Of a stretch of 64,000 bases of DNA, positions 24,873 to 42,857 are shown one piece after another. The first letter of the stretch is position 1, and every line of letters begins with the position of its first letter. The notes below the pieces were generated by a model, which worked only from the letters and a program-made list of their open reading frames with translations, was not told the origin of the DNA and ran no database searches. Source of the stretch: Lutibacter sp. (GTDB taxonomy: Bacteria > Bacteroidota > Bacteroidia > Flavobacteriales > Flavobacteriaceae); NCBI RefSeq assembly GCF_016342705.1, contig NZ_JAEINV010000012.1, forward strand, positions 50,767 to 114,766. The letters are read 5' to 3'. The translations under genes and the position numbers were made by a program.

Positions 24873-27641
24873 GTGAGATATTTTAAAGAAGTTTTTTTTA
24901 TTTTTCTAATTTCTTGCTCTTTAAAAGCACAAGAATTGCCATCTATAGAAATATTTACTCCTGAAATATATGGAGGTGAAAATCAGAATTGGATGATTTC
25001 ACAAGGTTCAAATAAATTTATTTATATAGCAAATAATGAAGGTTTATTGGAATATGATGGAGCTACTTGGAAAATGTACGCTTCACCAAATAACACTATA
25101 ATAAGAGCTGTAAAAGTTGTTGATAATAAAATATATACGGGGTCTTATATGGAATTTGGATATTGGGAAAAAGACTCATTTGGAATGTTGAATTATAATT
25201 CTTTGGTGCCTAAGCTAAATGAAAAAATGATTGAAGATGAAAATATATGGAATATTATTACCTATCAAGATTGGATAATTTTTCAGTCATTTAATAGGAT
25301 TTATTTTTATAATCTGGCAAAAGATAAGTTCACAATTATAAATTCAAAAAATCCAATCTCTAAGGTATTTAACAATAATAATGCAATCTATTATTTTGTT
25401 AATAATGAAGGTTTATTTAAAATCAAAGAGGGAAAATCAAAATTAATTGTAAATAATTCAATATTAGATGTTAATATTTTAATTAATATTTTTTCAATTG
25501 ATGAGGGCCTACTTATTCAAACAAGAAATTCAGGTTTTTATATTTTTAAAGAGGGGAAGCTTCAAAAGTGGAAAAGCTCTGAATTGAATGATTTAGAAGG
25601 GATTAAAACATACAACAGTATTCAGTTAAAAGACAAAAGTTTTGTTTTAGGAACAATTTCAAATGGAATTATTTTTTTATCAAAAGAAGGTAAAATACAA
25701 TACCAATTAAACCAGAAAAATGGATTAAGTAATAACACGGCACTCTCACTTTTTGAAGATAGTGATGAGAATATTTGGGTAGGTTTAGACAATGGAATTA
25801 ATTGTATTAACATAAAATCTCCTGTAAATGTTTTTAATGATGACGACGGTTCTTTAGGAACTGTTTATACTTCAATTGTTTTTAATAATTACAGCTATTT
25901 AGGAACCAATCAAGGATTGTTTTACAAAAAAATAAATTCTAATGAAAGCTTTAAAATTATTACAGGAACCGCTGGTCAGGTTTGGAATTTATTTGAAAAT
26001 GATAATGAATTATTTTGTGGACATCATTTAGGGACTTATTTAATTAATGAAAATAAAGCCATAAAAATAAGTGATATATCGGGGACCTGGAGTTTTAGAA
26101 AAATCCCTGGTTCACAAAATAAATTATTACAAGGTAATTATAGTGGGTTTTATGTGTTAATTAATAATAATGGAAAATGGTTTTTAAAAAATAAAATAGT
26201 TGGATTTGATAATTCTGCAAGATACTTTGAATTTATTAATGCCAATGAGTTATTTGTAAGTCACGGGTATAAGGGAGTGTTTAAACTTAACGTAGATGCA
26301 AGTTTCGAAAAATTCACCAAAGTTTCAAAACAAAATGATGTTTCTATTGGAAAGAACTCTAGTTTAATAAAATTCAATAATTCTATTTTGTATGCTAATA
26401 ATAAAGGAGTTTATAAATATGATTTGATAACAAATAAATTTTTAATGGATTCTGTTTTAAGCCCTATGGTTAAAAATGAAACTTATTTATCTGGAAAATT
26501 AATAGTTGATAAAAGTCAAAAATTATGGGGTTTTACTAAAGAGAGTATGAACTATGTAACAATTAATGATTTAACAAAAGAATTTAATATTAATACAATA
26601 GATATTCCTGCATCTCTTAGGAAAGGTATAAGTGGATACGAAAACATTTCATTATACAAAGACAACAAATATTTATTAGGCACTTCAAATGGATATATTA
26701 CTTTAGATCTTGGCAATTTTGAAACTCGAAAAGAAAGCTTAATTTTTATTAATGAAATTTCAACAAAAAATAGGGAGTCAAATAAATCATTTGTGAATTT
26801 GAGAGATAATGGTGAATTTGCATTTGATCAAAACTCAATTGTTTTTAAATTTAGTGTCCCTGTTTTTGACAAATACCAATCAGTAACCTATCAATACAAA
26901 TTGGAAGGCTATTATAATAAATGGAGTGATTGGAGTGACCAAACAACATTAACTTTTGATAATTTAACATTTGGAGAGTATTCTTTTAGTGTTAGAGGGA
27001 AATTAGGAAATGAACTCACAAATAATATTGCTACTTATCATTTTCAAATATTAAAACCTTGGTATTTTTCATATTTTGCAATATTCATTTATGGTCTTCT
27101 GTTTTTTATATGTGCATTTTTATTGCATAAAGCCCATTTAAGGCATTATAAAAATCAATTAGCTCATAAACAATTAGAAAGTGAGCAATTAATTATTCGA
27201 ATGAAAAATGAAAAGTTGAACCAAGATATTGAAAATAAAAATAGAGAGTTGGCAATTTCGACAATGAGTATTATTAATAAAAATGAAGTACTCAATAGTA
27301 TAAAAAGTGAGTTAAAAACGAATAATATTGATTCAAGTAATTTACAAGTATTAAAATTAATTGACGGGAATTTAAATAACTCAAAAGACTGGGATGTTTT
27401 TAAGGAAGCCTTTAATAACGCTGATAAATATTTTTTAGATAAGATTAAAGAATTACACCCAAACTTAACTCCTAACGATTTGCGTTTTTGTGCATATTTA
27501 CGTTTAAACTTAACTTCTAAAGAAATTTCACCTTTACTCAACATGACTGTAAGAAGTGTTGAAACAAAACGCTACAGATTAAGAAAACAAATGGGTTTAC
27601 CCCATGATGCTTGTTTGGTAAGCTACATCTTAAATGTGTAA
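24873..27641 (+). CDS. Membrane-spanning PUL sensor-regulator (propeller, Y_Y_Y, LuxR-type HTH)
   Basis: A 922-aa one-component regulator that should sense glycan fragments in the periplasm and control the adjacent susC-to-GH3 genes. The signal peptide MRYFKEVFFIFLISCSLKAQ comes first. The large sensor has regulator-propeller repeats, such as NKFIYIANNEGLLEYDGATW and DSDENIWVGLDNGINCINI. A Y_Y_Y domain (YQYKLEGYYNKWSDWS) precedes a membrane helix near residues 730-755, a coiled coil follows (about 760-820), and a LuxR/GerE-like HTH ends the protein (LTPNDLRFCAYLRLNLTSKE, then ETKRYRLRKQM). No histidine kinase or receiver domain is present. The start is GTG at 24873. The PUL begins 287 bp downstream on the same strand. 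Confidence 0.85.
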   Translation: MRYFKEVFFIFLISCSLKAQELPSIEIFTPEIYGGENQNWMISQGSNKFIYIANNEGLLEYDGATWKMYASPNNTIIRAVKVVDNKIYTGSYMEFGYWEKDSFGMLNYNSLVPKLNEKMIEDENIWNIITYQDWIIFQSFNRIYFYNLAKDKFTIINSKNPISKVFNNNNAIYYFVNNEGLFKIKEGKSKLIVNNSILDVNILINIFSIDEGLLIQTRNSGFYIFKEGKLQKWKSSELNDLEGIKTYNSIQLKDKSFVLGTISNGIIFLSKEGKIQYQLNQKNGLSNNTALSLFEDSDENIWVGLDNGINCINIKSPVNVFNDDDGSLGTVYTSIVFNNYSYLGTNQGLFYKKINSNESFKIITGTAGQVWNLFENDNELFCGHHLGTYLINENKAIKISDISGTWSFRKIPGSQNKLLQGNYSGFYVLINNNGKWFLKNKIVGFDNSARYFEFINANELFVSHGYKGVFKLNVDASFEKFTKVSKQNDVSIGKNSSLIKFNNSILYANNKGVYKYDLITNKFLMDSVLSPMVKNETYLSGKLIVDKSQKLWGFTKESMNYVTINDLTKEFNINTIDIPASLRKGISGYENISLYKDNKYLLGTSNGYITLDLGNFETRKESLIFINEISTKNRESNKSFVNLRDNGEFAFDQNSIVFKFSVPVFDKYQSVTYQYKLEGYYNKWSDWSDQTTLTFDNLTFGEYSFSVRGKLGNELTNNIATYHFQILKPWYFSYFAIFIYGLLFFICAFLLHKAHLRHYKNQLAHKQLESEQLIIRMKNEKLNQDIENKNRELAISTMSIINKNEVLNSIKSELKTNNIDSSNLQVLKLIDGNLNNSKDWDVFKEAFNNADKYFLDKIKELHPNLTPNDLRFCAYLRLNLTSKEISPLLNMTVRSVETKRYRLRKQMGLPHDACLVSYILNV

Positions 27642-27928: not shown

Positions 27929-30900
27929 ATGTTTATGAAATTTAAATTATTCACCAAAAAAGTCAGATTACTTTTCTCACTTTTTTTATTCTTAGGTATT
28001 TTTGTTGTTACGGCACAAACCTTAGAAGTTAATGGTACCGTAATTGATGCAAATGAAGTTCCTTTACCCGGAGTTTCTATTGTTGTTAAAAATACAACAA
28101 AAGGGACAACAACAGATTTTGGAGGTAAATTTGCATTGTCAAATATTCAAAAAGGAGAGGTGTTGGTTTTCTCTTTTATGGGATACAAATCGATAGAAAT
28201 TGTGATTAACAATTCTAATTACTTGAATATTACACTTAATGAAGATACTCAAACATTAAATGAGGTTGTTGTGACAGCTTTAGGTATTAAGCGTGAGGAA
28301 AAAGCGCTTGGGTATGCAGTTCAAAAAGTAGCTGGAGCAGACATTCAAAGAGTATCAGGTGTAGATGTTACTTCATCTCTTACGGGTAAAGTAGCTGGTC
28401 TTTTGGTTTTAAATTCCACAGATTTTGCTGCTACTCCAGTACTTACTATTCGTGGTGAATCTCCGCTATTAGTAATAGATGGTATTGCTTATGAAAATAA
28501 AACACTAGGAGATATATCTTCTGAAGATATCGAATCTATGAGTGTATTAAAAGGAGCAACTGCTTCAGCGCTATATGGTTTTCGTGGTGCAAGTGGAGCT
28601 ATTTTAATTACTACAAAAAACGGAAGTTCTAATAGTACAGGTATTACGGTAGATTATGCAACTAATACCATGTTCTCATCTGGGTTTTTAGCAATTCCTG
28701 AAAAACAAAGTCTTTATGGCCGAGGTAGTAATAATACTTATGATAAAAATTCTACGAGCTCTTGGGGTACAGTTATGGAAGGACAAATTCTTAATCAATG
28801 GGATCCTTTCTTAAAGGCATATAGTGATTACGAATATTTACCTGTTGGAAAAGATAACTTTAGTAATTTTTTAGAGCAAGGGTATGTTACGAATAATAAT
28901 TTAAATATTGGATTTAAACAAGATAACATTTCCTTAAGAAGTTCACTTAACTGGACACAAAATAAAGGTATTTACCCAAATTCTGTATTAGATAAATTTA
29001 CTTATACTTTTGGTGGAGAAGTAAATTTAGATAAATTTAAATTGAATTCAAATTTAGCATATTCAAGAAAAACATCTCCAAATCAGGGGTCAAATGGGTA
29101 TACATCATATGACCCAATGTATTCACTGTTAATTTGGTCGAGTGCAGATTATAATATTTTGGATTATAAGAACAATTACTGGATTGATCCAGGTGTAAAA
29201 CAAAATTTTACCTATCAATCTGGTATAAATAATCCATATTTTGATAAATACGAAAAAATAAATGAGACTTCTCGTGATATTTTTAATGCTGATTTATCTG
29301 CAAGTTATGAATTAACAGATTGGTTAAAAGCAACTATTCGAACTGGTCTTGATTTTTATACAGACCGCGGAGAGCTGAGACTTTCAAAAGGTTCCTATAC
29401 CCAATCAGGTAATACCGCTGTACCAGGTAATCTTTATACTTGGAATGGCGGACCAGCAGGTGGATATGTTACAGGTCAAACACAAGGATTTAGTATAAAT
29501 AGTGATTTTTTACTTACAGGTGATAGAGCATTTGATAAATTTAATATTGAATATCTAGCGGGTGGAACTATATATTACAAAAAAGATGATAATATTTATG
29601 CAAATACTGTAGGTGGTATTTCTATACCAGACTATTTTTCATTGAATGCATCTGTAAACCCAGCGAATGTTTCAGAAAGCACATATGCAAGACAAGTAAA
29701 TTCTGCATTTGGTAGAGTTGCTTTTTCTTGGGATAAATTAGTTTATATAGATATAACAGGGCGTAATGACTGGAGTTCAACTCTTGCAAAAGAAACACAA
29801 TCATACTTTTACCCATCAGTTGCTACTAGTTTTATTGTATCGGAACTATTACCAGAATCAACAAAAGATTGGTTAGATTTATTTAAGATTAGAAGTTCTT
29901 GGACTCAATCAAAAGGAATGGCAGGTATTTATGATATTAACAGTTCTTTTACAATTAATAGTGGTACTTGGAATACTTTTAATGGAGCAAGTACGCCTTC
30001 AAATTTATACCCAACAAATATTATTCCATCAAGTGCAGAAACTTTTGAAGTAGGTTTACAAGGAATGATGTTTAAAAATAGATTAATGCTTGATGTATCT
30101 CACTATAGTAAAAGATTTTACGATGGTATTATAACTGGACCAATATCATCAGCAAGCGGATATTCAGGAGTTTTCACAAATTCAGAAGAAGAAATAACCC
30201 GTCGTGGTTGGGAAGTAACACTAAATGCAACACCAATTAAAAATAAAGATTGGCAATTAGATTTAGGTATGAACTGGTCCACTTTTAAACGTGTTTACAC
30301 AAAATTGGATCCAACTTATACAACTGTAAAACCATGGATAGAAGTTGGAGAACGTGTTGATGCATATGTAGGTAGAGAATTTTTAACAGATCCAGCAACA
30401 GGAGCATTTATCTATAATAATGGAAGAATCGCAAAAAGTGGATACGATTCAGTTTTTGGATATTCTGACCCAGATTGGCTTTGGGGAGTAAATTCTACTT
30501 TAAAATATAAAGACTTTAGTTTATTTCTATCTTTGGATGGTGTAGTAGGGGGAATGATGACAACTAGGACTGAAAGTTATATGTGGAACTCAGGAGGTCA
30601 TCCAGATTCTTTAACACCTGAGAGAGCATTAGACGTTGCTACACCTGGTTCAACAAACTATATTGGTGAAGGTGTGAAAATTGTATCAGGTACAGTTACC
30701 TATGATGCCGTTGGTAATATTACAAGTGACACACGTGTTTTTGCTCCTAATGATATTGCAACAACCTATAAGCAAGCAATGCAAGATTTGCATGCTGGTA
30801 GTGCTTGGGGAGGGTCAGGAACACGTAATGATGCGTATTCTAAAACCTTTTATAAACTACGAGAAATGTCTATAACTTATACGTTCCCAAGTAAATACTT

Positions 30901-31060
30901 ACAAGGTTGGGCTGCAAAGGCTGCATCCGTAAGTTTTGTTGGGCAAAATGTGCTTTTATGGGCTAAAGATTTTAAATATTCTGACCCTGACGGTGGTTAT
31001 GAAGATTTTTCTGACCCATCAGTAAGATACCTTGGAGCGAATATTAAACTTACATTTTAA
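27929..31060 (+). CDS. SusC/RagA-family TonB-dependent outer-membrane transporter (glucan PUL)
   Basis: A 1043-aa transporter that imports oligosaccharides through the outer membrane with TonB energy. Signal peptide at residues 1-30 (LFSLFLFLGIFVVTAQ). The carboxypeptidase-like domain (VNGTVIDANEVPLPGVSIVVKNTTKGTTTDFGGKF, split here for reading) spans about 33-115. A TonB-box region and plug follow (LNEVVVTALGIKREEKALGYAV; LLVIDGIAYENKT; GATASALYGFRGASGAILITTK), then a 22-strand barrel ending NIKLTF with a terminal aromatic. ATG at 27935 is an equally good start. It is the first gene of the structural PUL with SusD 12 bp after. Substrate cannot be read from it; neighbours point to beta-glucan. 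Confidence 0.95.
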   Translation: MFMKFKLFTKKVRLLFSLFLFLGIFVVTAQTLEVNGTVIDANEVPLPGVSIVVKNTTKGTTTDFGGKFALSNIQKGEVLVFSFMGYKSIEIVINNSNYLNITLNEDTQTLNEVVVTALGIKREEKALGYAVQKVAGADIQRVSGVDVTSSLTGKVAGLLVLNSTDFAATPVLTIRGESPLLVIDGIAYENKTLGDISSEDIESMSVLKGATASALYGFRGASGAILITTKNGSSNSTGITVDYATNTMFSSGFLAIPEKQSLYGRGSNNTYDKNSTSSWGTVMEGQILNQWDPFLKAYSDYEYLPVGKDNFSNFLEQGYVTNNNLNIGFKQDNISLRSSLNWTQNKGIYPNSVLDKFTYTFGGEVNLDKFKLNSNLAYSRKTSPNQGSNGYTSYDPMYSLLIWSSADYNILDYKNNYWIDPGVKQNFTYQSGINNPYFDKYEKINETSRDIFNADLSASYELTDWLKATIRTGLDFYTDRGELRLSKGSYTQSGNTAVPGNLYTWNGGPAGGYVTGQTQGFSINSDFLLTGDRAFDKFNIEYLAGGTIYYKKDDNIYANTVGGISIPDYFSLNASVNPANVSESTYARQVNSAFGRVAFSWDKLVYIDITGRNDWSSTLAKETQSYFYPSVATSFIVSELLPESTKDWLDLFKIRSSWTQSKGMAGIYDINSSFTINSGTWNTFNGASTPSNLYPTNIIPSSAETFEVGLQGMMFKNRLMLDVSHYSKRFYDGIITGPISSASGYSGVFTNSEEEITRRGWEVTLNATPIKNKDWQLDLGMNWSTFKRVYTKLDPTYTTVKPWIEVGERVDAYVGREFLTDPATGAFIYNNGRIAKSGYDSVFGYSDPDWLWGVNSTLKYKDFSLFLSLDGVVGGMMTTRTESYMWNSGGHPDSLTPERALDVATPGSTNYIGEGVKIVSGTVTYDAVGNITSDTRVFAPNDIATTYKQAMQDLHAGSAWGGSGTRNDAYSKTFYKLREMSITYTFPSKYLQGWAAKAASVSFVGQNVLLWAKDFKYSDPDGGYEDFSDPSVRYLGANIKLTF

Positions 31061-31072: not shown

Positions 31073-32590
31073 ATGAAAAATTATATATATACATATTTAG
31101 CCGTATTTTCTCTTATCATTGTAGCTTCATGCAGCAATTTTGAGGATATAAATACTGACCCGAATAAGCCTACAACTGTAGCGCCTGAAATGCTTGCTAC
31201 ACAAGTATTGAAAGATTCTTATAGATTTTGGAACCCAAATCCAACTGATTTTTCTTACGCAAACTTATATAATAAGCATACGGCAATACTTCAAACAAAT
31301 CCAAATCCGTATCAATATTATTATTCATATTATCCTTATGGAAGTTGGGGATATCAGAAATTAACAAGTCTTAAACGTATGGTTGAGTTTTCTGAAGGAA
31401 GTTCAACGGAATCTTCATATAAAGGATTGGCTTTGTTTATGAAGGCTTCTTACGGTTTTTCAGCAACATTAGAAATGGGTGATGTTCCATATTCTGAAGC
31501 AGGATTGGCGGAAGAAGGAATTACCAAACCAAAGTACGATAAACAAGCTGATGTATTTGTGGCTATTTTAAATGATTTGAAAACAGCAGAAACATATTTT
31601 GCATCAGGAACAAATTTTTCTGGTGACATCATGTTTAATGGAGATGTTACGAAATGGCGTAAACTTTGTAATGCTATGCAATTAAAGGTTTTACAAACTA
31701 TGAGCAAAAAAATTACTGCTGAACAAAAAACTCGTTTTGCTGCTATAGTAGCTGCAAATAATTTAATGACAGGAAATGCAGATAATTTTAAATTAGTATA
31801 TACAGATAATCCAAACGCAACTCACCCTTTCTGGAACGGAGAAGGTATTAGAATTACGGACGCTGTTTCAAAATTGGTTGTAGATGCATTAAAAAACACC
31901 AATGATCGTAGATTGTTTTATTTTGCAGAACCAGCAGCAGCATTAATTACAGGTGGAGCAACAGAATCACAGTTTTCAGCTTATGAAGGTGCTCCAACTG
32001 AATTAGCTGCAGATGCTTTATATATTAATGGTCAAGCTGGTCAATATTCTTTAGTAAATAAACGATATACTTTATCTAGAGCTGGTGACCCAATGATTTT
32101 ATTCACCTATGCTGAACAATGTTTTATAATTGCTGAAGCAATTGAAGAAGGTTGGGTTGCAGGAAGTTCACAAACTTATTATGAAAATGGAGTGAAAGCA
32201 ATGCTTGCATATTATATGGCATTACCTTCTACTGGAACTCATGGAATGGCAATCACACAATCTTATATTGATGGTTATTTTACAGGTGCTGCTGCTTTTG
32301 CAGCAACTAAAACAGATCGTTTACACCAAATTTGGACACAAAGATGGCTGATAGATTTCTTTCAAGGAAATGGTGGGAATTATCCACAATTCCTTCGCAC
32401 AGGTTATCCAGTCTATCCTATAGATCCTTCAACTAGTATGAATCCAGATGATTCAGCCTTATATCCTCAACGATGGAAGTACCCAACCAGCGAATTAACT
32501 ACAAATGCAGAAAATTATTTAAAAGCGGTTGATGAGCAATATGGTGGATATGATGGAATAAACCTAAAGCCATGGTATTTGCAAAATTAG
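31073..32590 (+). CDS. SusD/RagB-like nutrient-binding lipoprotein (glucan PUL)
   Basis: A 505-aa surface lipoprotein that caps the SusC channel and binds glycan. Lipoprotein signal: LIIVASCSNFEDINTDPNKP, Cys in VASCS. The family pattern of the SusD-like type 2 group is visible in INTDPNKPT, DVPYSEAG, LGTNF-like loops and the C-terminal LPQRW-type motif (SALYPQRWKYP). Helical TPR-like parts run through the middle. It is separated by 12 bp from susC and followed by a stable hairpin, beyond which the enzyme genes begin. Confidence 0.9.
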   Translation: MKNYIYTYLAVFSLIIVASCSNFEDINTDPNKPTTVAPEMLATQVLKDSYRFWNPNPTDFSYANLYNKHTAILQTNPNPYQYYYSYYPYGSWGYQKLTSLKRMVEFSEGSSTESSYKGLALFMKASYGFSATLEMGDVPYSEAGLAEEGITKPKYDKQADVFVAILNDLKTAETYFASGTNFSGDIMFNGDVTKWRKLCNAMQLKVLQTMSKKITAEQKTRFAAIVAANNLMTGNADNFKLVYTDNPNATHPFWNGEGIRITDAVSKLVVDALKNTNDRRLFYFAEPAAALITGGATESQFSAYEGAPTELAADALYINGQAGQYSLVNKRYTLSRAGDPMILFTYAEQCFIIAEAIEEGWVAGSSQTYYENGVKAMLAYYMALPSTGTHGMAITQSYIDGYFTGAAAFAATKTDRLHQIWTQRWLIDFFQGNGGNYPQFLRTGYPVYPIDPSTSMNPDDSALYPQRWKYPTSELTTNAENYLKAVDEQYGGYDGINLKPWYLQN

Positions 32591-32781: not shown

Positions 32782-34356
32782 ATGAGAAAAATAAAAAAAA
32801 TATCTACGGTTTTATTGATAATATCTTTTGCATTTCTTTTGGGATGTAATTCAACTAAAACTAGCTTGAAAAGCAATATTAATTTTGCTAATAACAAAGT
32901 TGTTGCACATAGAGGAGCTTGGAAGATGCATAATCTTCCTCAAAATTCAATAGCTTCGCTTAAGAAAGCAATTCAATTAAACTGTTCAGGTTCAGAATTT
33001 GATGTTAGAATGACTGCAGATAATGTGCTAATTGTAACACATGACCCACAATATAATAATTTAGAAATTGAAAAAACCAACTATTCAGAATTAGCGGCTT
33101 TTAAATTATTCAATGGAGAAAAGCTCCCAACTTTAAAAGAATATCTTTTGGCTGGGATTAAAAACAATACCACCACTAGATTGTTTTGTGAGATAAAACC
33201 TTCAAAAATAAGTAAGGAAAGAGGACAGCTTATAGCAACTAAAGTGGTTCAAATGGTTGAAGCGCTAAAAGCAAAAGATTTGTTAGTGTATATAAGCTTT
33301 GATTATGATATACTAAAAAAAATTATACAATTAGAACCATCAGCTTTAATCCAATATTTAGAAAGCAATAAATCACTTGAGCAATTAAAAAAAGATGGTA
33401 TTAGTGGTATTGATTACTACTATAATAATTATAAAAACAATTTAAAAACAATTGAAAACGCAAAAACAATAGGTATTGCTTTAAATGCTTGGACTGTAAA
33501 TGATGTTGCTGATATGGAATGGTTGCTGGCAAATAAATTCGATTTTATTACAACAGATGAACCTATACTATTGTTAGAACCCGAAGAGAAAAGAGCTGCT
33601 AACTATAAAGAATATAACCTTGTTTGGTCAGACGAATTTGAATATTCAGGTTTGCCTGATTCATTAAAATGGAATTATAGATCTGGAGGGCAGGGTTTTG
33701 GTAATAATGAAAAACAGTTTTATTTAGAAAAATCTTTAGAGAATTCATTTGTTAAAAATGGAAAATTACATATTGTAGCTTTAAAAAAAGACATTGAAAA
33801 TAAACATTATACTTCAGCAAGGTTAACAACTTATAATAGGTTTGTTTTTCAATACGGAAAAATTGAAGTAATGGCAAAATTACCTGAAGGAAAAGGAACT
33901 TGGCCAGCAATTTGGATGCTTCCAGAAAGTCTTCGTAAAAAAGAAGAGTCTTGGCCTTTGTGTGGCGAAATTGATATTATGGAACATGTTGGGAAAGACC
34001 CAAATATGGTCCATGTTTCACTACATTCCAAAGAATACAATCATATAATGAATACTCAAATAACACATTTTGATAGAATTTCTGATGTTTTTAATGACTT
34101 TCACTTATACGGAATTGAATGGACACCAGAATTTATGAAGTTTTATATAGACAATAAATTGTTTTTTGAAGCTAAAAAAGGGGAAAATGGAATGGTTTCT
34201 ACGAACGAAGGTTGGCCTTTTGATAAGCCTTATTTTTTAATCTTAAATCTTGCCATTGGTGGAAATTGGGGAGGTGAAATTGATGATGCAATTTTTCCTT
34301 CTGAAATGTTAGTAGATTATGTTAGAATATACCAAAAAGCAACAAATAAAAATTAG
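32782..34356 (+). CDS. Lipoprotein fusion: glycerophosphodiester phosphodiesterase (GDPD) + GH16 beta-glucanase
   Basis: Start chosen at the ATG at 32782 (524 aa), giving a clean lipoprotein signal MRKIKKISTVLLIISFAFLL with Cys in GCNST; the ATGs at 32710 and 32746 add unlikely leader. Residues about 35-265 are a GDPD domain with all key residues visible: His43-Arg44 in AHRGAW, Glu72 and Asp74 in SEFDVRM, His87 in THDP, and Glu in FCEIKP. Residues about 275-524 are a GH16 domain (YNLVWSDEFEYSG) with the catalytic motif EIDIME: Glu396 nucleophile, Asp398, Glu401 acid/base. The GH16 part resembles laminarinase-type members (beta-1,3-glucan). Both active sites look intact, so one chain may remove a phosphodiester-linked group and cut the glucan. 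The fusion is unusual. Confidence 0.85.
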   Translation: MRKIKKISTVLLIISFAFLLGCNSTKTSLKSNINFANNKVVAHRGAWKMHNLPQNSIASLKKAIQLNCSGSEFDVRMTADNVLIVTHDPQYNNLEIEKTNYSELAAFKLFNGEKLPTLKEYLLAGIKNNTTTRLFCEIKPSKISKERGQLIATKVVQMVEALKAKDLLVYISFDYDILKKIIQLEPSALIQYLESNKSLEQLKKDGISGIDYYYNNYKNNLKTIENAKTIGIALNAWTVNDVADMEWLLANKFDFITTDEPILLLEPEEKRAANYKEYNLVWSDEFEYSGLPDSLKWNYRSGGQGFGNNEKQFYLEKSLENSFVKNGKLHIVALKKDIENKHYTSARLTTYNRFVFQYGKIEVMAKLPEGKGTWPAIWMLPESLRKKEESWPLCGEIDIMEHVGKDPNMVHVSLHSKEYNHIMNTQITHFDRISDVFNDFHLYGIEWTPEFMKFYIDNKLFFEAKKGENGMVSTNEGWPFDKPYFLILNLAIGGNWGGEIDDAIFPSEMLVDYVRIYQKATNKN

Positions 34357-34357: not shown

Positions 34358-35194
34358 ATGAAAAAATTAGTTATTTTATTACTATTTATTGGATTGTGTA
34401 TCAACTCATATGCCCAGACTTTTAAAGCAATGACATATAACATCCGTTTAAATGTTGCAGTCGATGGTGAAAATGCTTGGCCATTAAGAAAGGAATTTTT
34501 AACATCACAAATACAGTTTTATGAACCTGATATTTTAGGTGTTCAAGAAGCAACTCCTCTTCAGGTTGCTGAAATGTCTGTATCGCTTCCTCTATACAAT
34601 CAAGTAGGTGTTGGAAGAGATGGTGATGGTAAAGGAGAATCCTCAAATATTTATTATAAAAAAAATCGATTTATTGTTATAGAAACAGCTACTTTTTGGC
34701 TTTCTGAAACACCTGATGAAATTTCAAAAGGGTGGGACGCAGCATATAACAGAGTTTGTTCCTACGCTTTGTTGAAAGATAAAAAAACAAAATATAAAAT
34801 ATGGGTTTTCAATACTCACTTAGATCATATTGGAGAAGAAGCGAGAACTAAAGGTATTGAATTAATTATGACTAAAATTAAAACGCTTAACACAAATAAT
34901 TACCCCGTAATATTTATGGGTGATTTTAATTCTGACCCAGCCACTGAAAGAATTATAAATCTAAAAAAAATAATGAATGAATGTAGGGAAGTTTCAATAG
35001 AAAAACCTTTTGGTCCTTCAGGAACTTTTAATGGTTTTAAACACAATGAACCAGTGACCCAATTAATTGACTATATTTTTATTTCAAAAAATAATAAAAT
35101 AGTAGTTGATAAATATGCAATTTTAAGTGATTCTAAAGACTTAAAATATCCATCAGACCATTTGCCTGTATTTGTAAAATTGAGATATAAATAA
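34358..35194 (+). CDS. Exported endonuclease/exonuclease/phosphatase-family hydrolase
   Basis: The start at 34358 lies one base after the TAG of the GDPD-GH16 gene, implying translational coupling; the ATG at 34319 overlaps that gene and lacks the signal. MKKLVILLLFIGLCINSYAQ is a signal peptide. The EEP fold is clear from motifs in order: MTYNIRLNV, DILGVQEAT (metal Glu), FNTHLDHIG, MGDFNSDPA, and PSDHLPVFVK with the catalytic Asp-His. At 278 aa it is a single domain. Relatives hydrolyse phosphodiesters or phosphomonoesters of nucleic acids, inositides and sphingomyelin. In this operon an action on phosphoester groups of the imported glycan is more likely than DNA degradation, by inference. 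Confidence 0.85.
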   Translation: MKKLVILLLFIGLCINSYAQTFKAMTYNIRLNVAVDGENAWPLRKEFLTSQIQFYEPDILGVQEATPLQVAEMSVSLPLYNQVGVGRDGDGKGESSNIYYKKNRFIVIETATFWLSETPDEISKGWDAAYNRVCSYALLKDKKTKYKIWVFNTHLDHIGEEARTKGIELIMTKIKTLNTNNYPVIFMGDFNSDPATERIINLKKIMNECREVSIEKPFGPSGTFNGFKHNEPVTQLIDYIFISKNNKIVVDKYAILSDSKDLKYPSDHLPVFVKLRYK

Positions 35195-35306: not shown

Positions 35307-36353
35307 ATGAATTATCAAATCAAATTTAAACTAGTTTTAATGGCATTGATAGCTATTTCTTTAAATAGCTGCTCTCAAAATAAAACTACAAAAATAGCTT
35401 TTGGATCTTGTGGTCATCAAAATGATTCGTTACCAATTTATAATGTGGTGGTGAAACACAAACCAGATATATTTATTTTTTTAGGTGATAATATTTATGG
35501 TGACACCTATGATATGGATGTGCTAAAAGCTAAGTATGATATATTAAAAGGTAAACCCTCTTTCCAAAATTTAAAGAAAAACACACCTATAATTGCCACT
35601 TGGGATGATCACGATTTTGGTTGGAATGATGCTGGAAGACATTATAAATTTAAAAAGGAATCAAAAGAGATTTTTTTAGATTTTTTTAATGAACCTAAAA
35701 ATTCTGAAAGAAGGAAACAAGAAGGTGTTTACACTTCTTATTATTATGAAAAAAGCGGAAAAAATTTACAAGTAATTCTATTAGATGTCAGAACTTTTAG
35801 AGATGATTTATTAAAACATACAAAAGAAGAAAATAAATTCTTTTACGAACCAGATTATGTTCCATATCAACATGCAGACTCTACATTGTTGGGTGCAACA
35901 CAATGGAAATGGCTTGAAAAGGAATTATCAAAACCTGCAGATATAAGAATTATTGGTTCAGGTTCACAATTTGGAATTGAATATAATGGGTATGAAGCTT
36001 GGGCAAATTTCCCCTTGGAACAACAAAAATTCTTTGATTTAATAAAAAAAACTAAGGCAAATGGTGTTCTTTTTATTTCAGGAGATGTGCATTATGCCGA
36101 GATTTCAAAAGTTGAAACACCTAATTTATATCCCATCTATGATATAACTTCAAGTGGGCTTTCCTCACGTTGGCTGTTTGCAACCCCAAATAAAAACAGA
36201 ATTGAAGGACCCGTAATGGAAAATCATTTTGGTTTAATTACTATTAATTGGAAAACTAAAAACCCTGAAATAAAAATGGAAATTTGGGATGTGAATGATA
36301 ATCAACGAATTGAATATTCAATAAAATTAGATGAAATAAGTTTTAAAAAGTAA
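35307..36353 (+). CDS. PhoD-like alkaline phosphatase/phosphodiesterase lipoprotein
   Basis: A 348-aa metallophosphoesterase. The signal LMALIAISLNSCSQ carries a lipobox Cys. Motifs of the PhoD family: IAFGSCGHQNDSLPIY (Cys metal ligand region), FIFLGDNIYGD, IIATWDDHDFGWNDAG, VILLDVRTFRDDLL, and FISGDVHYAEIS near residue 255. PhoD enzymes release phosphate from monoesters and diesters and can act on teichoic-acid-type polymers. The N-terminal Ig-like domain of full-size PhoD is missing, as in the shorter eukaryote-like group. It lies between the EEP and GH3 genes and is probably part of the same transcript (112 bp gap before, 9 bp after). Confidence 0.85.
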   Translation: MNYQIKFKLVLMALIAISLNSCSQNKTTKIAFGSCGHQNDSLPIYNVVVKHKPDIFIFLGDNIYGDTYDMDVLKAKYDILKGKPSFQNLKKNTPIIATWDDHDFGWNDAGRHYKFKKESKEIFLDFFNEPKNSERRKQEGVYTSYYYEKSGKNLQVILLDVRTFRDDLLKHTKEENKFFYEPDYVPYQHADSTLLGATQWKWLEKELSKPADIRIIGSGSQFGIEYNGYEAWANFPLEQQKFFDLIKKTKANGVLFISGDVHYAEISKVETPNLYPIYDITSSGLSSRWLFATPNKNRIEGPVMENHFGLITINWKTKNPEIKMEIWDVNDNQRIEYSIKLDEISFKK

Positions 36354-36362: not shown

Positions 36363-38627
36363 ATGAAAACACACCTATTAAATATAATTTTATGGATAAC
36401 CTTACTATCAATTTTTTCTTGTTCTACAAAAATGACTATAAATAAAAAGCAACCAGAGAAAAATCCTAATAATTCAAAGGCAATAGTTTTTGTTGATAGT
36501 TTACTTCAAAAAATGACATTGGATGAAAAAATAGGTCAAACAATTCTCTTTTCTTCTGGCTCCGACATTACAGGACCAACTATAGATAAAAATTTCGTTG
36601 ATTATTTAAAAGATGGTATGCTTGGAGCAGTATTTAGTGTGCCAACTGTAAAAGCTACCATAGATCTTCAAAAAATTGCAGTTGAAGAAACCAGATTAGG
36701 AATTCCATTATTATTTGGATATGATGTTATTCACGGATACAAAACTATATTTCCAATTTCACTGGGAGAATCAGCATCTTGGGATTTAGATTTAATAGAA
36801 AAAAGTTCAAGAATTGCAGCAGAAGAAGCTTCGGCCTCGGGTTTTCACTGGACCTTTGCACCAATGATTGATATTACTCGTGATCCTCGTTGGGGAAGAG
36901 TCTCGGAAGGAGCGGGAGAAGATGTTTTTTTAGGTAGTGCAATTGCAAAAGCACGTGTTAAAGGTTTTCAAGGAGATGATTTATCTAAAAACAATACAAT
37001 TTTGGCTTGTGCAAAACATTTTGCAGCATATGGAGCAGCAATTGCAGGAAGAGACTATAATACGGTAGATATGTCCGAAAGAGAATTAAGGACAACGTAT
37101 TTGCCACCTTTTAAAGCTGCCATTGATGCCGGAGTAACTACTTTTATGACTTCTTTTAATGATTTAAATGGAGTTCCAGCTTCTGGAAATAAGTTTTTAT
37201 TGTCGGATATCTTAAGAAATGAATGGAACTTTGATGGTTTTGTGGTTACTGATTATACATCTATAAATGAAATGATTCCTCACGGGTATTCTAAAGATGA
37301 AAAACAGGCAGGAGAACAAGCGCTAAATGCCGGAGTTGATATGGATATGCAAGGTGGTGTATTTTTAAGAAATCTAAAAAAATTAGTTGAAGAAGGTAAA
37401 GTTTCAGAAGAAAAAATAACAGCTGCAGCAAGGCGTATTTTAATTTTAAAATATCGTTTAGGGCTGTTTGAAGATCCTTACAGATATAGTAATGAACAAC
37501 GTGAAAAAGTAACGCTTTATAAACCTGAATATTTAGAGACAGCCAAAGAATTAGCTCAAAAATCTATTGTCTTATTAAAAAATAAAAACAATATTTTACC
37601 TTTAAATAAGCATCAGAAAATAGCGTTAATTGGTCCTTTAGTTAAAGACGAAAGTCATATTTTAGGAACTTGGATAGCGCGTGGAGATAGGACTGGTAAA
37701 GCTGTTAGTGTTTATGAAGGAATAGAAAATTTACTAGGGAATACTGAAATTATTGAGTACGCAAAGGGTTGTGAAATTGAAGGAAATGATAAATCAAAAT
37801 TCAATGAAGCTGTAAATATTGCTAAAGAATCAGATGTTGTAGTAATGGTTTTAGGAGAATCTCACGGATTAAGTGGTGAAGCTGCTAGTAGAACTAATTT
37901 AGATTTACCAGGAGTGCAAAAAGAGCTAATTGCTGAAATTAAAAGAACAGGGAAACCAATTATTTTAATTTTAATGAATGGTAGACCGTTAACATTAGAA
38001 TATGAAAACGAAGTTACAGATGCAATTTTAGAAACTTGGTTTTCTGGGACATTAGGCGGAACTGCAATTACGGATGTGCTTTTTGGAGTGTACAATCCAT
38101 CAGGGAAACTTACAATGTCGTTTCCTAGAAATGTTGGGCAAATCCCGATTTATTACAACCATAAAAATACAGGAAGACCTTATGAAATTAAAGGGGCAGA
38201 ACAACTTTTTAGATCAAAATATTTAGATGTTCCTAATTCGCCATTATATCCATTTGGTTATGGTTTAAGTTATACGTCATTTGAATATTCAGACTTAAAA
38301 ATTAATAAAAAAGAGTTTAATTTTAATGAAACTATTGAGATTAGGGTAACAGTTACAAATACTGGGAAATATGATGGCGAAGAGATTGTGCAACTATATA
38401 TTCAAGATATTGTAGGAAGTGTTACTAGACCAGTGAAAGAATTAAAAGGGTTTGAAAAAGTTTTTCTGAAAATTGGGGAATCGAAAGAAATATCATTTTC
38501 ATTGACTTCTAAAAATTTAGCATTTTATACAATCGATATGAGTTTTAAAGCTGAGGTAGGCGATTTTAAAATATTTGTAGGAACAAATAGTGCAAAACTT
38601 TTGGAATCAGCGTTTGTTTTAAAATAA
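36363..38627 (+). CDS. GH3 beta-glucosidase (BglX-like) lipoprotein
   Basis: A 754-aa exo-acting enzyme that removes glucose from beta-glucan oligosaccharides in the periplasm or at the surface. The lipoprotein signal ends in LLSIFSCSTK. The GH3 N-terminal barrel shows GYDVIHGYKTIFPISLGE, APMIDITRDPRWGRVSEGAG and KHFAAYGAAIAGRDYNT. The nucleophile is Asp297 in FVVTDYTS, and the acid/base candidate is Glu506 in LSGEAASR in the second domain. A C-terminal fibronectin-III-like domain follows (VTVTNTGKYDGEEIVQLYIQ). Start 9 bp after the PhoD stop. Together with GH16 it forms a full route from beta-glucan to glucose. Confidence 0.93.
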   Translation: MKTHLLNIILWITLLSIFSCSTKMTINKKQPEKNPNNSKAIVFVDSLLQKMTLDEKIGQTILFSSGSDITGPTIDKNFVDYLKDGMLGAVFSVPTVKATIDLQKIAVEETRLGIPLLFGYDVIHGYKTIFPISLGESASWDLDLIEKSSRIAAEEASASGFHWTFAPMIDITRDPRWGRVSEGAGEDVFLGSAIAKARVKGFQGDDLSKNNTILACAKHFAAYGAAIAGRDYNTVDMSERELRTTYLPPFKAAIDAGVTTFMTSFNDLNGVPASGNKFLLSDILRNEWNFDGFVVTDYTSINEMIPHGYSKDEKQAGEQALNAGVDMDMQGGVFLRNLKKLVEEGKVSEEKITAAARRILILKYRLGLFEDPYRYSNEQREKVTLYKPEYLETAKELAQKSIVLLKNKNNILPLNKHQKIALIGPLVKDESHILGTWIARGDRTGKAVSVYEGIENLLGNTEIIEYAKGCEIEGNDKSKFNEAVNIAKESDVVVMVLGESHGLSGEAASRTNLDLPGVQKELIAEIKRTGKPIILILMNGRPLTLEYENEVTDAILETWFSGTLGGTAITDVLFGVYNPSGKLTMSFPRNVGQIPIYYNHKNTGRPYEIKGAEQLFRSKYLDVPNSPLYPFGYGLSYTSFEYSDLKINKKEFNFNETIEIRVTVTNTGKYDGEEIVQLYIQDIVGSVTRPVKELKGFEKVFLKIGESKEISFSLTSKNLAFYTIDMSFKAEVGDFKIFVGTNSAKLLESAFVLK

Positions 38628-38706: not shown

Positions 38707-39645
38707 ATGGAAAACTTTAATAAAGTTAAAAGACGTGAGTTTATAAAAAAAAGTGGGATATTTACTGCTGGAACCCTGTTTTTAGGTTTTGGAGGCTCAA
38801 ATCTTTACGGGGCATTTGAGTTTGCTGAAATTGAAAATTCCATTCCATTTGTAACACTTAGTAATAACGTTAAAATGCCAATACTTGGCTTTGGAACTAA
38901 TACGCTTATGGGACCCGTTTGTATACAAAGTGTTTCCGATGCAATTTCAGTTGGATATCGCTTAATTGATACCGCTAAAATTTATGGAAATGAAGAATTT
39001 GTAGGGCAAGGGATAAAGCAAAGCGGTATGAATAGAAAAGAGCTATTTATAACTTCAAAACTTTGGGTAGATGATGCAGGTTATGAGAGTACTAAGAAAG
39101 CTTTTCAGACTTCCTTAGAGAAATTGGGCGTAGAATATTTAGATTTATATCTTATTCATAGACCAAGAGGAGATGTAAAAGGTTCATGGAAAGCTATGGA
39201 AGAGTTACATAATGAAGGAAAAATTAGAGCTATTGGAGTAAGTAATTTTAATCCTAATCAGTTAAATGATTTATTATTAAATGCTACTATTAAGCCGGTC
39301 ATTAATCAAATTGAGACAAATGTTTTCTGTCAGCAACACATTTCTTATGAATTTTTAAAAAACACGAATATTCAAATGGAAGCTTGGTCTCCATTTGCTG
39401 CTGGTAGAAATGATATTTTTAACAACCAAATCTTAAAAGAAATTGGTGAAAAGTATCAAAAAAGTGTTGCGCAAGTTTGCTTAAGATGGCTTTATCAAAG
39501 AGGAATTGTTGCTATTCCAAGATCTTCACAAAAAACACATATGATTGAAAATTTAAATATTTTTGATTTTGAACTTTCTAAAGCAGACATAAAAAAAATA
39601 GTAGCATTAGATGTAGATACTACTCAATTTCCTGAATGGGAATAA
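38707..39645 (+). CDS. Tat-exported aldo/keto reductase
   Basis: A 312-aa NADPH-type oxidoreductase with a twin-arginine signal: KRREFIKKSGIFTAGTLFLG with Arg9-Arg10. The AKR tetrad is intact: Asp88 in LIDTA, Tyr93 in KIYGN, Lys118 in TSKLW and His151 in LIHRP. VSNFNPNQLN and AIPRSSQKTHMIENL are typical cofactor-site motifs. Export as a folded, cofactor-loaded protein into the periplasm would explain the Tat signal; a sugar aldehyde substrate is possible. It ends the glucan block and is 79 bp after GH3, so it may be in the same operon. It converges on the RraA-family gene. Confidence 0.85.
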   Translation: MENFNKVKRREFIKKSGIFTAGTLFLGFGGSNLYGAFEFAEIENSIPFVTLSNNVKMPILGFGTNTLMGPVCIQSVSDAISVGYRLIDTAKIYGNEEFVGQGIKQSGMNRKELFITSKLWVDDAGYESTKKAFQTSLEKLGVEYLDLYLIHRPRGDVKGSWKAMEELHNEGKIRAIGVSNFNPNQLNDLLLNATIKPVINQIETNVFCQQHISYEFLKNTNIQMEAWSPFAAGRNDIFNNQILKEIGEKYQKSVAQVCLRWLYQRGIVAIPRSSQKTHMIENLNIFDFELSKADIKKIVALDVDTTQFPEWE

Positions 39646-39718: not shown

Positions 39719-40441
39719 TTATCTGTTTTTTTGTAATTTTTTCCATTCTTGAAATTGTGCTAAGGAGGCTTCATTGGTTGGTGGATATAAACCAATAATT
39801 GTTTGTCCTTCTGCAACTTTTTCTAAAACAAAGTCTTCAAAAATGGTCATTTCAACACATTCATCGGTAACTTCATTTATAATTTCTTGAGGAATAACCA
39901 TAATACCATCATCATCACCAACTAAAACATCGCCAGGGAAAACGGCAACATCGCCACAGCCAATAGGTACATTTATATCTAACGCTTGATGTAATGTTAA
40001 ATTTGTTGGAGCGGATGGACGTTGATGGTATGAAGGGAAATCTAACGCCGCAATTTCGGCGCAATCTCTAAATCCACCATCGGTTACAATTCCAGCGACA
40101 CCTCTTACCATTAAACGAGTTACCAAAATTGAACCAGCAGAAGCTGCTCTTGCATTGTTTCTGCTATCAATAACCAATACAGAGCCTTCAGGGCATTCTT
40201 CAACAGCAACACGTTGAGGGTGTTTAGGGTCTCTAAATATACTTATTGGGTTTAAATCTTCTCGTGCAGGTATATAACGTAATGTAAAAGCTTCGCCAAC
40301 CATAGTGGGTTTTCCTAGTTTTAAAGGTTGTACATTTTGAATAAATTGGTTTCTTAAACCTCTTTTGAATAAACAAGTTGCAATAGTTGCAGTACTAACA
40401 GTTTTTAGTTTGTTTCTGGTTGAAGTTGAAAGCGTATTCAT
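39719..40441 (-). CDS. RraA-family protein (class II pyruvate aldolase-like)
   Basis: A 240-aa protein of the RraA/HMG-CHA aldolase fold. The start at 40441 (MNTLSTSTRNK) is chosen; the longer frame runs through the divergent promoter and operator. GGFRDC with Arg125-Asp126 is the catalytic GGxRD pair of metal-dependent HMG/CHA aldolases. The nearby GDVAVFPGDVLVGDDDGIMVIP block is the family C-terminal signature. Members either cleave pyruvate from 4-hydroxy-2-oxo acids or, as E. coli RraA, inhibit RNase E. The gene diverges from PL6-1, and the operator pair at 40503-40525 lies between them, placing it in the alginate regulon; this argues for a metabolic role on 2-keto acids, by inference. 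Confidence 0.8.
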   Translation of the reverse strand: MNTLSTSTRNKLKTVSTATIATCLFKRGLRNQFIQNVQPLKLGKPTMVGEAFTLRYIPAREDLNPISIFRDPKHPQRVAVEECPEGSVLVIDSRNNARAASAGSILVTRLMVRGVAGIVTDGGFRDCAEIAALDFPSYHQRPSAPTNLTLHQALDINVPIGCGDVAVFPGDVLVGDDDGIMVIPQEIINEVTDECVEMTIFEDFVLEKVAEGQTIIGLYPPTNEASLAQFQEWKKLQKNR

Positions 40442-40474
40442 TAGATTTAATTTATAAAAATTGGTTAGAATTGA

Positions 40475-40526
40475 TTGTTGTTTAAACAAATATACATATA
40501 TTTGGTAAACCAAATTGGTAAACCAA
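40475..40526. promoter_or_regulatory. Divergent promoter with two GntR/FadR-type operators (rraA/PL6-1)
   Basis: Plus strand: TTG at 40475-40477 and TATATTTG at 40497-40504, 19 bp apart. Minus strand: TATATTTG as CAAATATA at 40487-40494. Two TGGTAAACCA boxes at 40503-40512 and 40516-40525, 13 bp apart, overlap the plus -7 element. They match the FadR-subfamily operator form TGGTNNACCA. Confidence 0.75.
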
Positions 40527-40542
40527 TTTAATTTATTAAAAA

Positions 40543-42852
40543 ATGAAACGAAATATTCTTTATTTAACACTTTTTACAATCATTATATTTTCTTGTAACA
40601 CTACAAAATCAGTAGGGATTTTGGTAAAAGATATTAATGAACTGAATTCTGCAATTACAAATGCGAAAGCAGGTGATGAAATTATTTTAGCAAACGGAAT
40701 TTGGAAAGATATTGAAGTAAAATTTACAGGAAAAGGAACAAAAGAGCATCCAATTATTTTAAAAGCAGAAACAGCGGGAGAAGTTTTTATTGAAGGAGTT
40801 TCTAATTTAGAAATAGGAGGAGAATATTTGGAAGTAAGTGGTCTTCATTTTAAAAATGGCTATACGCCATCAAAAAACGTGATTCAGTTTAAAATTGATT
40901 CTGATAATATTGCCAGAAACTGTAAAGTTACCAATTGCGTTATTGAAGAATTTACACAGCCAGAAAGAGATATTCAAGATCATTGGGTGGAATTTTGGGG
41001 AAGAAATAACGAATTAAGCAATTGTTATATTGCTGGGAAATCTAATAGCGGACCAACAGTAATGGTGGTTTTAAAAGGAAATGAAAGTATAAATAACCAT
41101 CACCAAATTATAAATAATTATTTTGGACCGCGACCAAGAAAAGGTGGTCCACACGGTGAAACATTACAAATTGGTGATAGTGGAACTTCAATGTCACCAT
41201 CGTTTGTAAATGTGGCTAATAATTATTTTGATCGTAATAATGGAGAGGTAGAAATAGTTTCAAATAAGTCTAATAACAACATTTTTAAAAATAATATTTT
41301 CTTTGAAAGCGAAGGTTCATTAGTATTACGTCATGGAAATTACGTTACAATTGATGGTAATATTTTTATAGGAAATGATAATTCTGAATTTATTGGAGGA
41401 ATTAGAGTAATAAATACAGGGCATTGGATTACAAACAACTATTTTTATAAAATTAATGGAAATGAATTTAGAAGTGCGCTGGCAGTAATGAATGGCGTAC
41501 CAAAATCTCCTTTAAATAGATACAACCAAGTTACAGATGCCGTAATTGCCTATAACTCTTTTATAGATTGTAAATCGCCTTGGCAATTTAGCGTTGGAGC
41601 AAACAATGATAAAAGCGATGTGTTGCCAGCTTCTGAAATTCGTTCTGCGCGACCAATTAGAACTATTTTAGCGAATAATGTAATTTACAATCAACAAGCA
41701 GATGAATTTCCAATTGTAAATTATGATAAAGTTGATGGAGTAACGTTTAAGAATAATAGCTTAAACAGTACCAATAAAAGTGAGGTTACTAGTGATGGAC
41801 TGATCACTAAAAATATGGAAATGAAACAACTTTCAGATTGGTTGTTTGTTCCTGTAACTAATGATAGTGAAACATATGCTGGATTTGATTTTGAAACCAT
41901 AACAACAGATTTGCTTGGGAATTCTCGAGCAACTCAAAACAATGTTGGAGCAATAACAGTTCCTGCCAATGAGTCTAATTTTAAGTTTGATAAAAAAGCA
42001 TATGGACCTACTTGGTTTTCTTCTGAAAAAGAAAAAGTTGCAGCAATTACTGTGGAAGTTTCAACAGCTATAGAACTTCTAGATGCGGTATCAAAAGTAG
42101 TTTCTGAAACAGTTATTGAATTAAATTCAGGTTCTTACGAAATTTCAAAATCATTGAATATTAGCAATAAAGTAACTATTAAATCAAAAGATGAAAATAG
42201 CAAAGCTCAATTGTTATATACTGGTGAGGCAAATACTCCAGCTTTTCAAATGCTACCAAAAGGTATTTTAATTTTAGAAGATTTAGATTTAAAAGGAACG
42301 AATGAACAACAAGCAATTGCTCCACTTGAAAAAGGAATGTCCAAAGCCTATAATTTATGGATGAAAAACACTTCTGTTAGCGATTTTAAAGATGTGTTAA
42401 AAACATATAAAAATTCATTTTCGGACACTATTTCAATTGTAAATTCATCGTTTAAAAACTGTGAAAATGGAATTCAATTAGCAGGTGAAATAGATGATAA
42501 AGGTGAATATAGCGCTGAGTTTGTGTATATTCAAAACTCGGAATTTGACAATGTTAAAAACAACGTATTAAATTATTATAGAGGAGGTTATGATGAGTCT
42601 ACCATTGGTGGTAATTTAGTTTTTGAACAAAATAAATTTACAAATTGCGGTAAAAAGGATGCTGAAGGAATTTTAATTAAAACGCGCGGAATTGTAAATG
42701 TAATTTTTAAAGAAAATTCGTTTACCAATAATCCAGTTAAATTAATTGCCATTTTATGGGGGGAAAAAGGACAGCAACCTGTTGATAATACAATAATTAA
42801 TTCAGGTAAAATTGAAGTTCAACAAAACTTGAAAATGAAATTAATGTATTAA
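40543..42852 (+). CDS. PL6 alginate lyase, two-domain beta-helix lipoprotein
   Basis: Cuts alginate by beta-elimination, giving unsaturated oligouronates. Lipoprotein signal: LFTIIIFSCNTTK. The N-terminal parallel beta-helix of the chondroitinase-B/PL6 type runs to about residue 400. Lys242 in SNKS and Arg263 in RHGN are the catalytic base and acid candidates, 21 residues apart as in characterised PL6 enzymes. GPRPRKGGPHGETLQIG near residue 205 fits the substrate and calcium region. The remaining 340 residues form a second beta-helix (AIELLDAVSKVVSETVIELN onward), making 769 aa, longer than single-domain PL6. A paralogue with the same layout lies at 48504. Heparinase-fold gene 5 bp downstream. 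Confidence 0.9.
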   Translation: MKRNILYLTLFTIIIFSCNTTKSVGILVKDINELNSAITNAKAGDEIILANGIWKDIEVKFTGKGTKEHPIILKAETAGEVFIEGVSNLEIGGEYLEVSGLHFKNGYTPSKNVIQFKIDSDNIARNCKVTNCVIEEFTQPERDIQDHWVEFWGRNNELSNCYIAGKSNSGPTVMVVLKGNESINNHHQIINNYFGPRPRKGGPHGETLQIGDSGTSMSPSFVNVANNYFDRNNGEVEIVSNKSNNNIFKNNIFFESEGSLVLRHGNYVTIDGNIFIGNDNSEFIGGIRVINTGHWITNNYFYKINGNEFRSALAVMNGVPKSPLNRYNQVTDAVIAYNSFIDCKSPWQFSVGANNDKSDVLPASEIRSARPIRTILANNVIYNQQADEFPIVNYDKVDGVTFKNNSLNSTNKSEVTSDGLITKNMEMKQLSDWLFVPVTNDSETYAGFDFETITTDLLGNSRATQNNVGAITVPANESNFKFDKKAYGPTWFSSEKEKVAAITVEVSTAIELLDAVSKVVSETVIELNSGSYEISKSLNISNKVTIKSKDENSKAQLLYTGEANTPAFQMLPKGILILEDLDLKGTNEQQAIAPLEKGMSKAYNLWMKNTSVSDFKDVLKTYKNSFSDTISIVNSSFKNCENGIQLAGEIDDKGEYSAEFVYIQNSEFDNVKNNVLNYYRGGYDESTIGGNLVFEQNKFTNCGKKDAEGILIKTRGIVNVIFKENSFTNNPVKLIAILWGEKGQQPVDNTIINSGKIEVQQNLKMKLMY

Positions 42853-42857
42853 TAAGG

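Follow-up and report, generated by a model that had tools for sequence, protein, structure and literature searches.

The window, a 64,000-nucleotide stretch of DNA from a Lutibacter sp., carries the gene of a predicted lipoprotein that joins a glycerophosphodiester phosphodiesterase (GDPD) domain and a glycoside hydrolase family 16 (GH16) domain in one chain. The catalytic residues of both domains are intact, the gene lies with a SusC/SusD pair (SusCD) in a predicted operon of conserved order, and stand-alone relatives of its GDPD occur near GH144 genes. On balance, the fusion protein probably both cuts the backbone of a beta-glucan and removes groups attached to it by phosphodiesters, most likely glycerol phosphate.

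Four observations are new here. The GDPD catalytic residues are unchanged in all 33 fused loci, an EEP-family gene comes immediately next in 24 of them, GH144 lies near 15 of the 45 stand-alone GDPD relatives, and two loci, L136 and L085, have GDPD and GH16 as split neighbours. Because of these, and because the EEP of the window matches a mannosyl-6-phosphatase, we favour a phosphate-substituted glucan. The initial annotation had argued that one enzyme for both activities implies a phosphodiester-substituted glucan; the gene context, through EEP and GH144, points the same way, and the activity and the substrate are predictions from sequence.

In the proposed pathway, the GH16 domain, which belongs to an endo-beta-1,3-glucanase family, would open the glucan chain and cut it down. 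The substituent would come off through the GDPD domain, either released as glycerol phosphate or with a phosphomonoester left behind, and the EEP phosphatase may then free phosphate bound to the sugar or to glycerol. With a cyclic glucan, the endo-acting GH16 would open the ring and the GDPD would take off the substituent. The SusCD would import the oligosaccharides and a GH3 beta-glucosidase would finish them to glucose. Both activities of the fusion, its substrate, the order of these steps and the cell-surface location are what we infer.

Many Gram-negative bacteria produce periplasmic glucans that bear phosphoglycerol. More tentatively, this operon type may let Bacteroidota eat the glycerol-phosphorylated beta-1,3(-1,6)-glucans of other bacteria, the GDPD-GH16 protein unmasking and opening a charged, often cyclic glucan and the EEP clearing the phosphate. 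A sister polysaccharide utilisation locus (PUL) with a stand-alone GDPD and GH144 would then do the same for beta-1,2 periplasmic glucans.

The fusion protein, its distribution and its trees

The mechanically called open reading frame (ORF) of the fusion begins upstream at a TTG (32710), and the signal peptide comes first with the ATG start at 32782. A lipobox-like LLGC at Cys22 was read by eye. The domain search proposed in the initial annotation puts both profiles over their curated Pfam cut-offs in the 524-residue product, GDPD (PF03009) at residues 43–261 with E 3.3e-23 and 83.5 bits against 23.6, and GH16 (PF00722) at residues 312–499 with E 5.7e-24 and 85 bits against 22. The GDPD residues that it had listed, His43-Arg44, Glu72, Asp74 and His87, are all there, and Glu137 and Lys139 complete the site. 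Its intact EIDIME motif of GH16 is confirmed as well, in the form GEIDIMEHVG (E-x-D-x-x-E) with Glu396, Asp398 and Glu401. The metal, phosphate and acid/base site of B. subtilis GlpQ, as given in the available part of PMC7086022, consists of His43, Arg44, Glu70, Asp72, His85 and Glu152; matched by motif rather than by structural superposition, these are His43, Arg44, Glu72, Asp74, His87 and Glu137 of the fusion.

All the named GDPD and GH16 residues are invariant in a 40-sequence alignment, and each is kept in 119 or 120 members of a 120-protein set, where one row is gapped at five GDPD positions and one has Gln at Glu401. The AlphaFold2 model of the fusion protein has a mean pLDDT of 90.8, and 7ww4 is its best match in the PDB, covering almost all of the chain (TM-score 0.85 by query). 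The nearest solved single-domain relative of the GH16 part is the laminarinase 3iln (E 9e-76).

The GDPD-GH16 fusion is common in Bacteroidota and its architecture is known, so that novelty would lie in the function. A search of 5.8 billion proteins gave 4711 relatives among 7996 scored, and both domains are present in all 120 homologues listed, the window protein included. The fusion pointed out initially is real, and it is not unique, as every listed homologue is fused and a full-length relative has been solved in the PDB. Counting only the places that span both domains, the genome samples gave 10/60 for genus and order, 14/397 for family, 8/395 for class and 9/392 for phylum; these samples overlap and each includes the window's own genome, and in the family, class and phylum searches the best three candidates per genome were scored. 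A fifteenth match of the family sample, G802, is GH16 only.

The open-access literature yielded neither a paper on a GDPD-GH16 protein nor a published PUL that removes phosphoglycerol from glucans. In the accessible text of PMC10710014, the mentions of GDPD and GH16 are unrelated to each other. The earlier statement that no PUL built on this fusion has been described agrees with the open-access literature, most subscription papers being outside this scope.

The two domains also occur apart. L136, from the same family, has two adjacent genes behind SusD in the place of the fusion, one for GDPD and one for GH16, each with a signal peptide by eye, and at L085 (Larkinella arboricola) a GDPD ORF and then a GH16 ORF overlap by four bases as called. 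L149 (SusD-GDPD-EEP) and L081 (GDPD-EEP) have no GH16 nearby. The GDPD tree rejects one clade of the fused rows and the four stand-alone rows nested with them (approximately unbiased (AU) test, p 2e-6), and therefore fusion or separation of the domains occurred at least twice; this tree does not separate repeated joining from splitting.

The fused domains are spread over three positions in the GH16 tree. L030, whose fused ORF is cut short (403 residues, with GH16 continuing in other ORFs), was left out of it. The AU test does not reject a single clade of the fused rows with the five GH16-only ones nested among them (p 0.227), and with the window-type and Pedobacter-type rows alone held together p is 0.256. 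Convergent fusion was dropped as a conclusion from this tree since the one-clade constraint stands.

The trees bear on the possibility that the GDPD has no glycan role and is either a passenger whose activity is unrelated or a domain that serves GH16 structurally. Relatives without GDPD do exist (L190–L192 and L203), and the structure 7WWC was solved with laminaritriose according to its title, with no phosphodiesterase work on it found in the open-access literature. However, the GDPD catalytic residues are invariant at every fused locus, the fused GDPDs are not one clade, which implies at least two events of joining or splitting, and split GDPD/GH16 neighbours exist. We regard a GDPD without a glycan role as quite improbable.

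Gene context and the candidate substrate

The 33 fused loci are the window, 27 loci from the genome search and 5 from a genome-contig scan. They belong to 201 scanned loci (a 22-kb stretch of the window and 200 fetched ones), of which L070, L095 and L164 were dropped with no focal gene. Neighbours were counted within 8 kb, and all such counts are lower bounds, some loci ending at contig ends (e.g. L174 and L175). The comparison sets are 80 GH16-only loci, which are top hits rather than a random sample and lack GDPD by construction, and 40 ordinary GDPDs fetched out of 59 places.

Near the fused loci we found SusC and SusD at 26, EEP at 24, a regulator at 22, GH3 at 16 and GH30 at 6. The gaps between the fusion and the next-gene EEP are at most 22 bases, overlaps included. 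An EEP is present at just 7 of the GH16-only loci and at none of the ordinary GDPD loci. At seven fused loci (L028 of Gelidibacter salicanalis, L189, L193, L194, L197, L198 and L201), GDPD-GH16, EEP and GH3 are the sole glycan or phosphate enzymes among the families searched. Two candidate markers were given up. PhoD as a third conserved phosphoesterase was rejected, being near one fused locus, the window itself, in a single-sequence search, and SusCD proximity was dropped as a discriminating marker because 12 of the 40 ordinary GDPDs are also near a SusC/SusD pair.

The window EEP matches four solved chains, the putative EEP proteins 3MPR and 3G6S, the uncharacterised 3L1W and the mannosyl-6-phosphatase 4C1R. 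The best two are 3MPR (E 5e-45) and 4C1R (E 7e-45, residues 26–259), and the aligned letters agree. We take 4C1R to be BT3783 of the yeast-mannan PUL of B. thetaiotaomicron, a phosphatase that acts on a polysaccharide. By analogy, such an enzyme is a precedent for removing glycan phosphate inside a PUL rather than proof of the substrate, and the window EEP is predicted to be a glycan phosphatase of this type.

EEP genes also accompany GH16 elsewhere. At L190, L191, L192 and L203, EEP is the next gene, with a second GH16 and GH30s alongside. L172, which comes from a different genus in the family, has a related EEP (390 bits) adjoining a GH16, together with GH30s, GH5 and GH3 and no GDPD. Thus, EEP phosphatases occur in other beta-glucan loci.

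Fungal and oomycete polymers with a glycosylphosphatidylinositol (GPI) remnant, and mycolaminarin, are further candidate substrates. In the walls of fungi or oomycetes, the GDPD may cut a phosphodiester linking beta-glucan to protein or mannan (the GPI remnant), or the operon may target the phosphorylated storage glucans of oomycetes (mycolaminarin). The likeness of the EEP to a mannosyl-6-phosphatase suits this origin, the persistence of EEP in relatives without GDPD fits phosphomonoesters, and GH30 at six fused loci is as expected for a beta-1,3/1,6-glucan. However, GH30 is near those six only, the stand-alone GDPD relatives go with beta-1,2-glucanases, and no mannan enzyme family is represented among the eight window operon proteins scanned, the relatives not having been searched for such enzymes. 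A fungal or oomycete target seems unlikely to us.

The GDPD itself offers a possible link to bacterial glucans. Bit scores to the window's GDPD are 233–515 for fused domains, 146–355 for the 45 stand-alone relatives and at most 49 for the 40 ordinary GDPDs, a gap that is partly selection as the stand-alone relatives were chosen by strong similarity to the window protein. Fourteen of the ordinary GDPDs were not detected at all by similarity; the residue count could use 17 of the 40, those with an alignable domain, and the tree includes 16, which form one side of a branch with support 100/98. By sequence, the fused and stand-alone relatives are a GDPD subfamily distinct from the ordinary ones.

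Besides GH144, the stand-alone relatives have GH3 at 16 and GH16 at 2 of their 45 loci; the ordinary GDPDs have GH144 at 0, GH3 at 1 and GH16 at 0 of 40. Across 32 whole genomes, a PF10091 (GH144-type) domain lies within 3.4 kb of 10 of the 15 stand-alone relatives in these genomes and within 10 kb of 1 of the 59 ordinary and 0 of the 18 fused GDPDs. The GH144 of L148 matches the endo-beta-1,2-glucanase 5GZH (E 3.5e-179). According to the available parts of PMC10514313 and PMC11842490, bacterial beta-1,2-glucans carry phosphoglycerol and bacterial periplasmic glucans also carry succinate. An alpha/beta hydrolase, possibly an esterase, is found in 11 of the 15 GH144-linked loci, and as an esterase it would fit periplasmic glucans that also bear succinate.

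Phosphorus scavenging would explain the phosphoesterases in another way. GDPD, EEP and PhoD would take phosphate from the phospholipid head groups (e.g. glycerophosphocholine) of dead cells, the role of GH16 would be limited to opening or binding the cell wall, and the glucan would be plain laminarin. The PhoD-like protein added in the window and the SusC/SusD pairs near ordinary GDPDs agree with it. So do the Pedobacter-type fused loci L029, L185, L186 and L202, all four without SusCD within 8 kb; a phospholipase C-type phosphoesterase (PF04185/PF05506, by Pfam on L186 and by similarity on the others) comes after the fusion in L185, L186 and L202, and this context suits lipid phosphorus better. 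From published work, in the portions available, SusCD-like phosphate utilisation systems exist in Flavobacterium (PMC8115612), and a survey lists 576 SusCD loci with phosphodiesterases and without CAZymes, for which nucleic acids were proposed as the target (PMC6499787). On the other side, the EEP matches a glycan phosphatase, GH3 and SusCD are companions typical of glycan loci, and ordinary GDPDs are near GH16, GH144 and EEP in none of 40 cases each. We consider scavenging a doubtful explanation. As a separate observation, the fusion at the four Pedobacter-type loci stands beside an opposite-strand protein of about 1100 residues (DUF4175 by Pfam in L185 and by clustering in the other three).

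The Pedobacter-type context and the two published kinds of SusCD system weigh against a phosphate-substituted glucan, as do the following points. GH144 is near 0 of the 33 fused loci, and 26 of the 45 stand-alone members of the subfamily lack GH16, GH144 and GH3 alike within 8 kb. The GH144 association is in large part one inherited locus, since 14 of the 15 GH144-linked loci form one clade and 9 of the 10 in the whole-genome check come from one genus. EEP is absent from 9 of the 33 fused loci, and its enrichment over GH16-only and ordinary GDPD loci (Fisher p 2e-11 and 3e-12, respectively) ignores relatedness and compares sets that are not random. L190, L191, L192 and L203 retain EEP, so it goes with the GH16 lineage of the window even without GDPD, which is dispensable there.

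Stereochemistry adds to these points. The phosphoglycerol on such glucans is thought to derive from phosphatidylglycerol (PMC10237404, in its accessible part), and groups of this origin are sn-glycerol-1-phosphate. Characterised GlpQ enzymes accept only sn-glycerol-3-phosphate, as stated in the available text of PMC7086022. Therefore, the GDPD of the fusion would need another stereospecificity.

If the fusion does act on a phosphate-substituted beta-glucan, it would be part of a defined set of enzymes for glycans that connect the recycling of carbon with that of phosphorus. Such enzymes would also be tools to strip glycerol phosphate from the aminoglycoside-binding glucans of Pseudomonas biofilms, whose binding is described in the accessible part of PMC2997053. 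Moreover, the unstudied half of the solved structure 7WWC, its GDPD, would become directly testable.

The operon and its surroundings in the window

From the regulator to the aldo/keto reductase, the genes follow one another on one strand in the order listed below. By strand and spacing we infer one transcript. The EEP start codon lies one base past the stop codon of the fusion, and a longer EEP ORF from 34319 begins inside the fusion gene. The PUL of the initial annotation is borne out, with a SusC/SusD pair, glycoside hydrolases and a regulator side by side, SusC (TIGR04056), SusD, GH3 and the Y_Y_Y regulator all being matched.

Table 1. Genes of the predicted operon and domains of the fusion protein, with window positions
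Feature	Position	Strand	Evidence
Predicted PUL regulator, 922 aa, Y_Y_Y domain	24873..27641	+	Pfam Y_Y_Y E 1.4e-8; C-terminal HTH-like region by eye
SusC-type TonB-dependent outer-membrane transporter	27929..31060	+	TIGR04056, 508 bits, over cut-off
SusD-type glycan-binding lipoprotein (SusD-like_2)	31073..32590	+	PF12771 E 7e-66
GDPD-GH16 fusion lipoprotein (predicted), 524 aa	32782..34356	+	ATG start; Pfam, alignments, AlphaFold2 model
GDPD domain of the fusion	residues about 33-265 (32878-33576)	+	
GH16 domain of the fusion	residues about 277-519 (33610-34338)	+	
EEP-family predicted secreted phosphatase	34358..35194	+	PF03372 E 2e-12
PhoD-like predicted phosphatase/phosphodiesterase	35307..36353	+	PF09423 E 1e-23
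GH3 beta-glucosidase, BglX type	36363..38627	+	PRK15098 BglX, 873 bits, over cut-off
Aldo/keto reductase, probably outside the core set	38707..39645	+	PF00248 E 6e-55

The GH3 was rejected as a linkage marker. It says nothing on the linkage because several BglX-type structures match it, among them the BT_3567-like and Lin1840 structures, presumably of beta-1,2 activity. The window genome has a second GH16-GH30-SusCD locus (L168), at which neither GDPD nor EEP was detected.

An RraA-like aldolase (39719-40570, minus strand) lies between the glucan operon and a second polysaccharide cluster (40543-53142). The latter, probably directed at alginate, encodes two proteins of Chondroitinase_B type (PL6-like) and two of heparinase II/III or alginate-lyase type; an Nramp-type transporter lies between them. 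At 45181-47076, one chain combines a GntK-type gluconokinase (TIGR01313) with a complete 6-phosphogluconate dehydrogenase (TIGR00873), both over cut-off, and so holds two successive steps of gluconate use. On the other side of the PUL, 21809-24088 encodes a ParB_N-like protein, matched weakly and below cut-off, together with two small proteins that have no Pfam match. In the one at 23269, a His-x-His motif (YHAHLLI) like that of small replication proteins was read by eye. This region is possibly a mobile element.

Comparison with known systems

The closest solved protein is the multidomain beta-1,3(4)-glucanase of Pedobacter terrae (PDB 7WW4/7WWC), which matches the fusion from end to end in the same GDPD-GH16 arrangement (E 2e-163, 51% identity). 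It is named as a glucanase only, and the related Pedobacter-type loci differ from the window in lacking nearby SusCD. The available text of PMC12448869 gives 7WW4/7WWC as a P. terrae glucanase with no accompanying publication available.

The phosphate utilisation systems (PUS) of Flavobacterium johnsoniae resemble the window in combining SusCD-like genes with phosphoesterases (PMC8115612). However, the accessible part of that source defines PUS by phosphate regulation and mentions neither GDPD nor a glucanase. The mannosyl-6-phosphatase 4C1R is an EEP-family protein like the window EEP and acts on a glycan, whereas in the window the backbone is predicted to be beta-glucan, the partner is a GDPD and a mannan enzyme is absent from the eight operon proteins scanned.

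In the GH144 beta-1,2-glucan PULs, a stand-alone GDPD of the window's subfamily adjoins GH3, with SusCD. There, GH144 replaces GH16 and no EEP was seen in the 15 loci. Such PULs are abundant according to PMC6499787, whose available part does not mention GDPD. Laminarin-type GH16 loci share SusCD, GH16 and GH3 with the window and differ in that few of the GH16-only ones have EEP. Finally, the GlpQ and UgpQ glycerophosphodiester phosphodiesterases have the family and the catalytic residues in common with the window GDPD, which differs from them in being fused to GH16 in a PUL and in belonging to a distinct subfamily.
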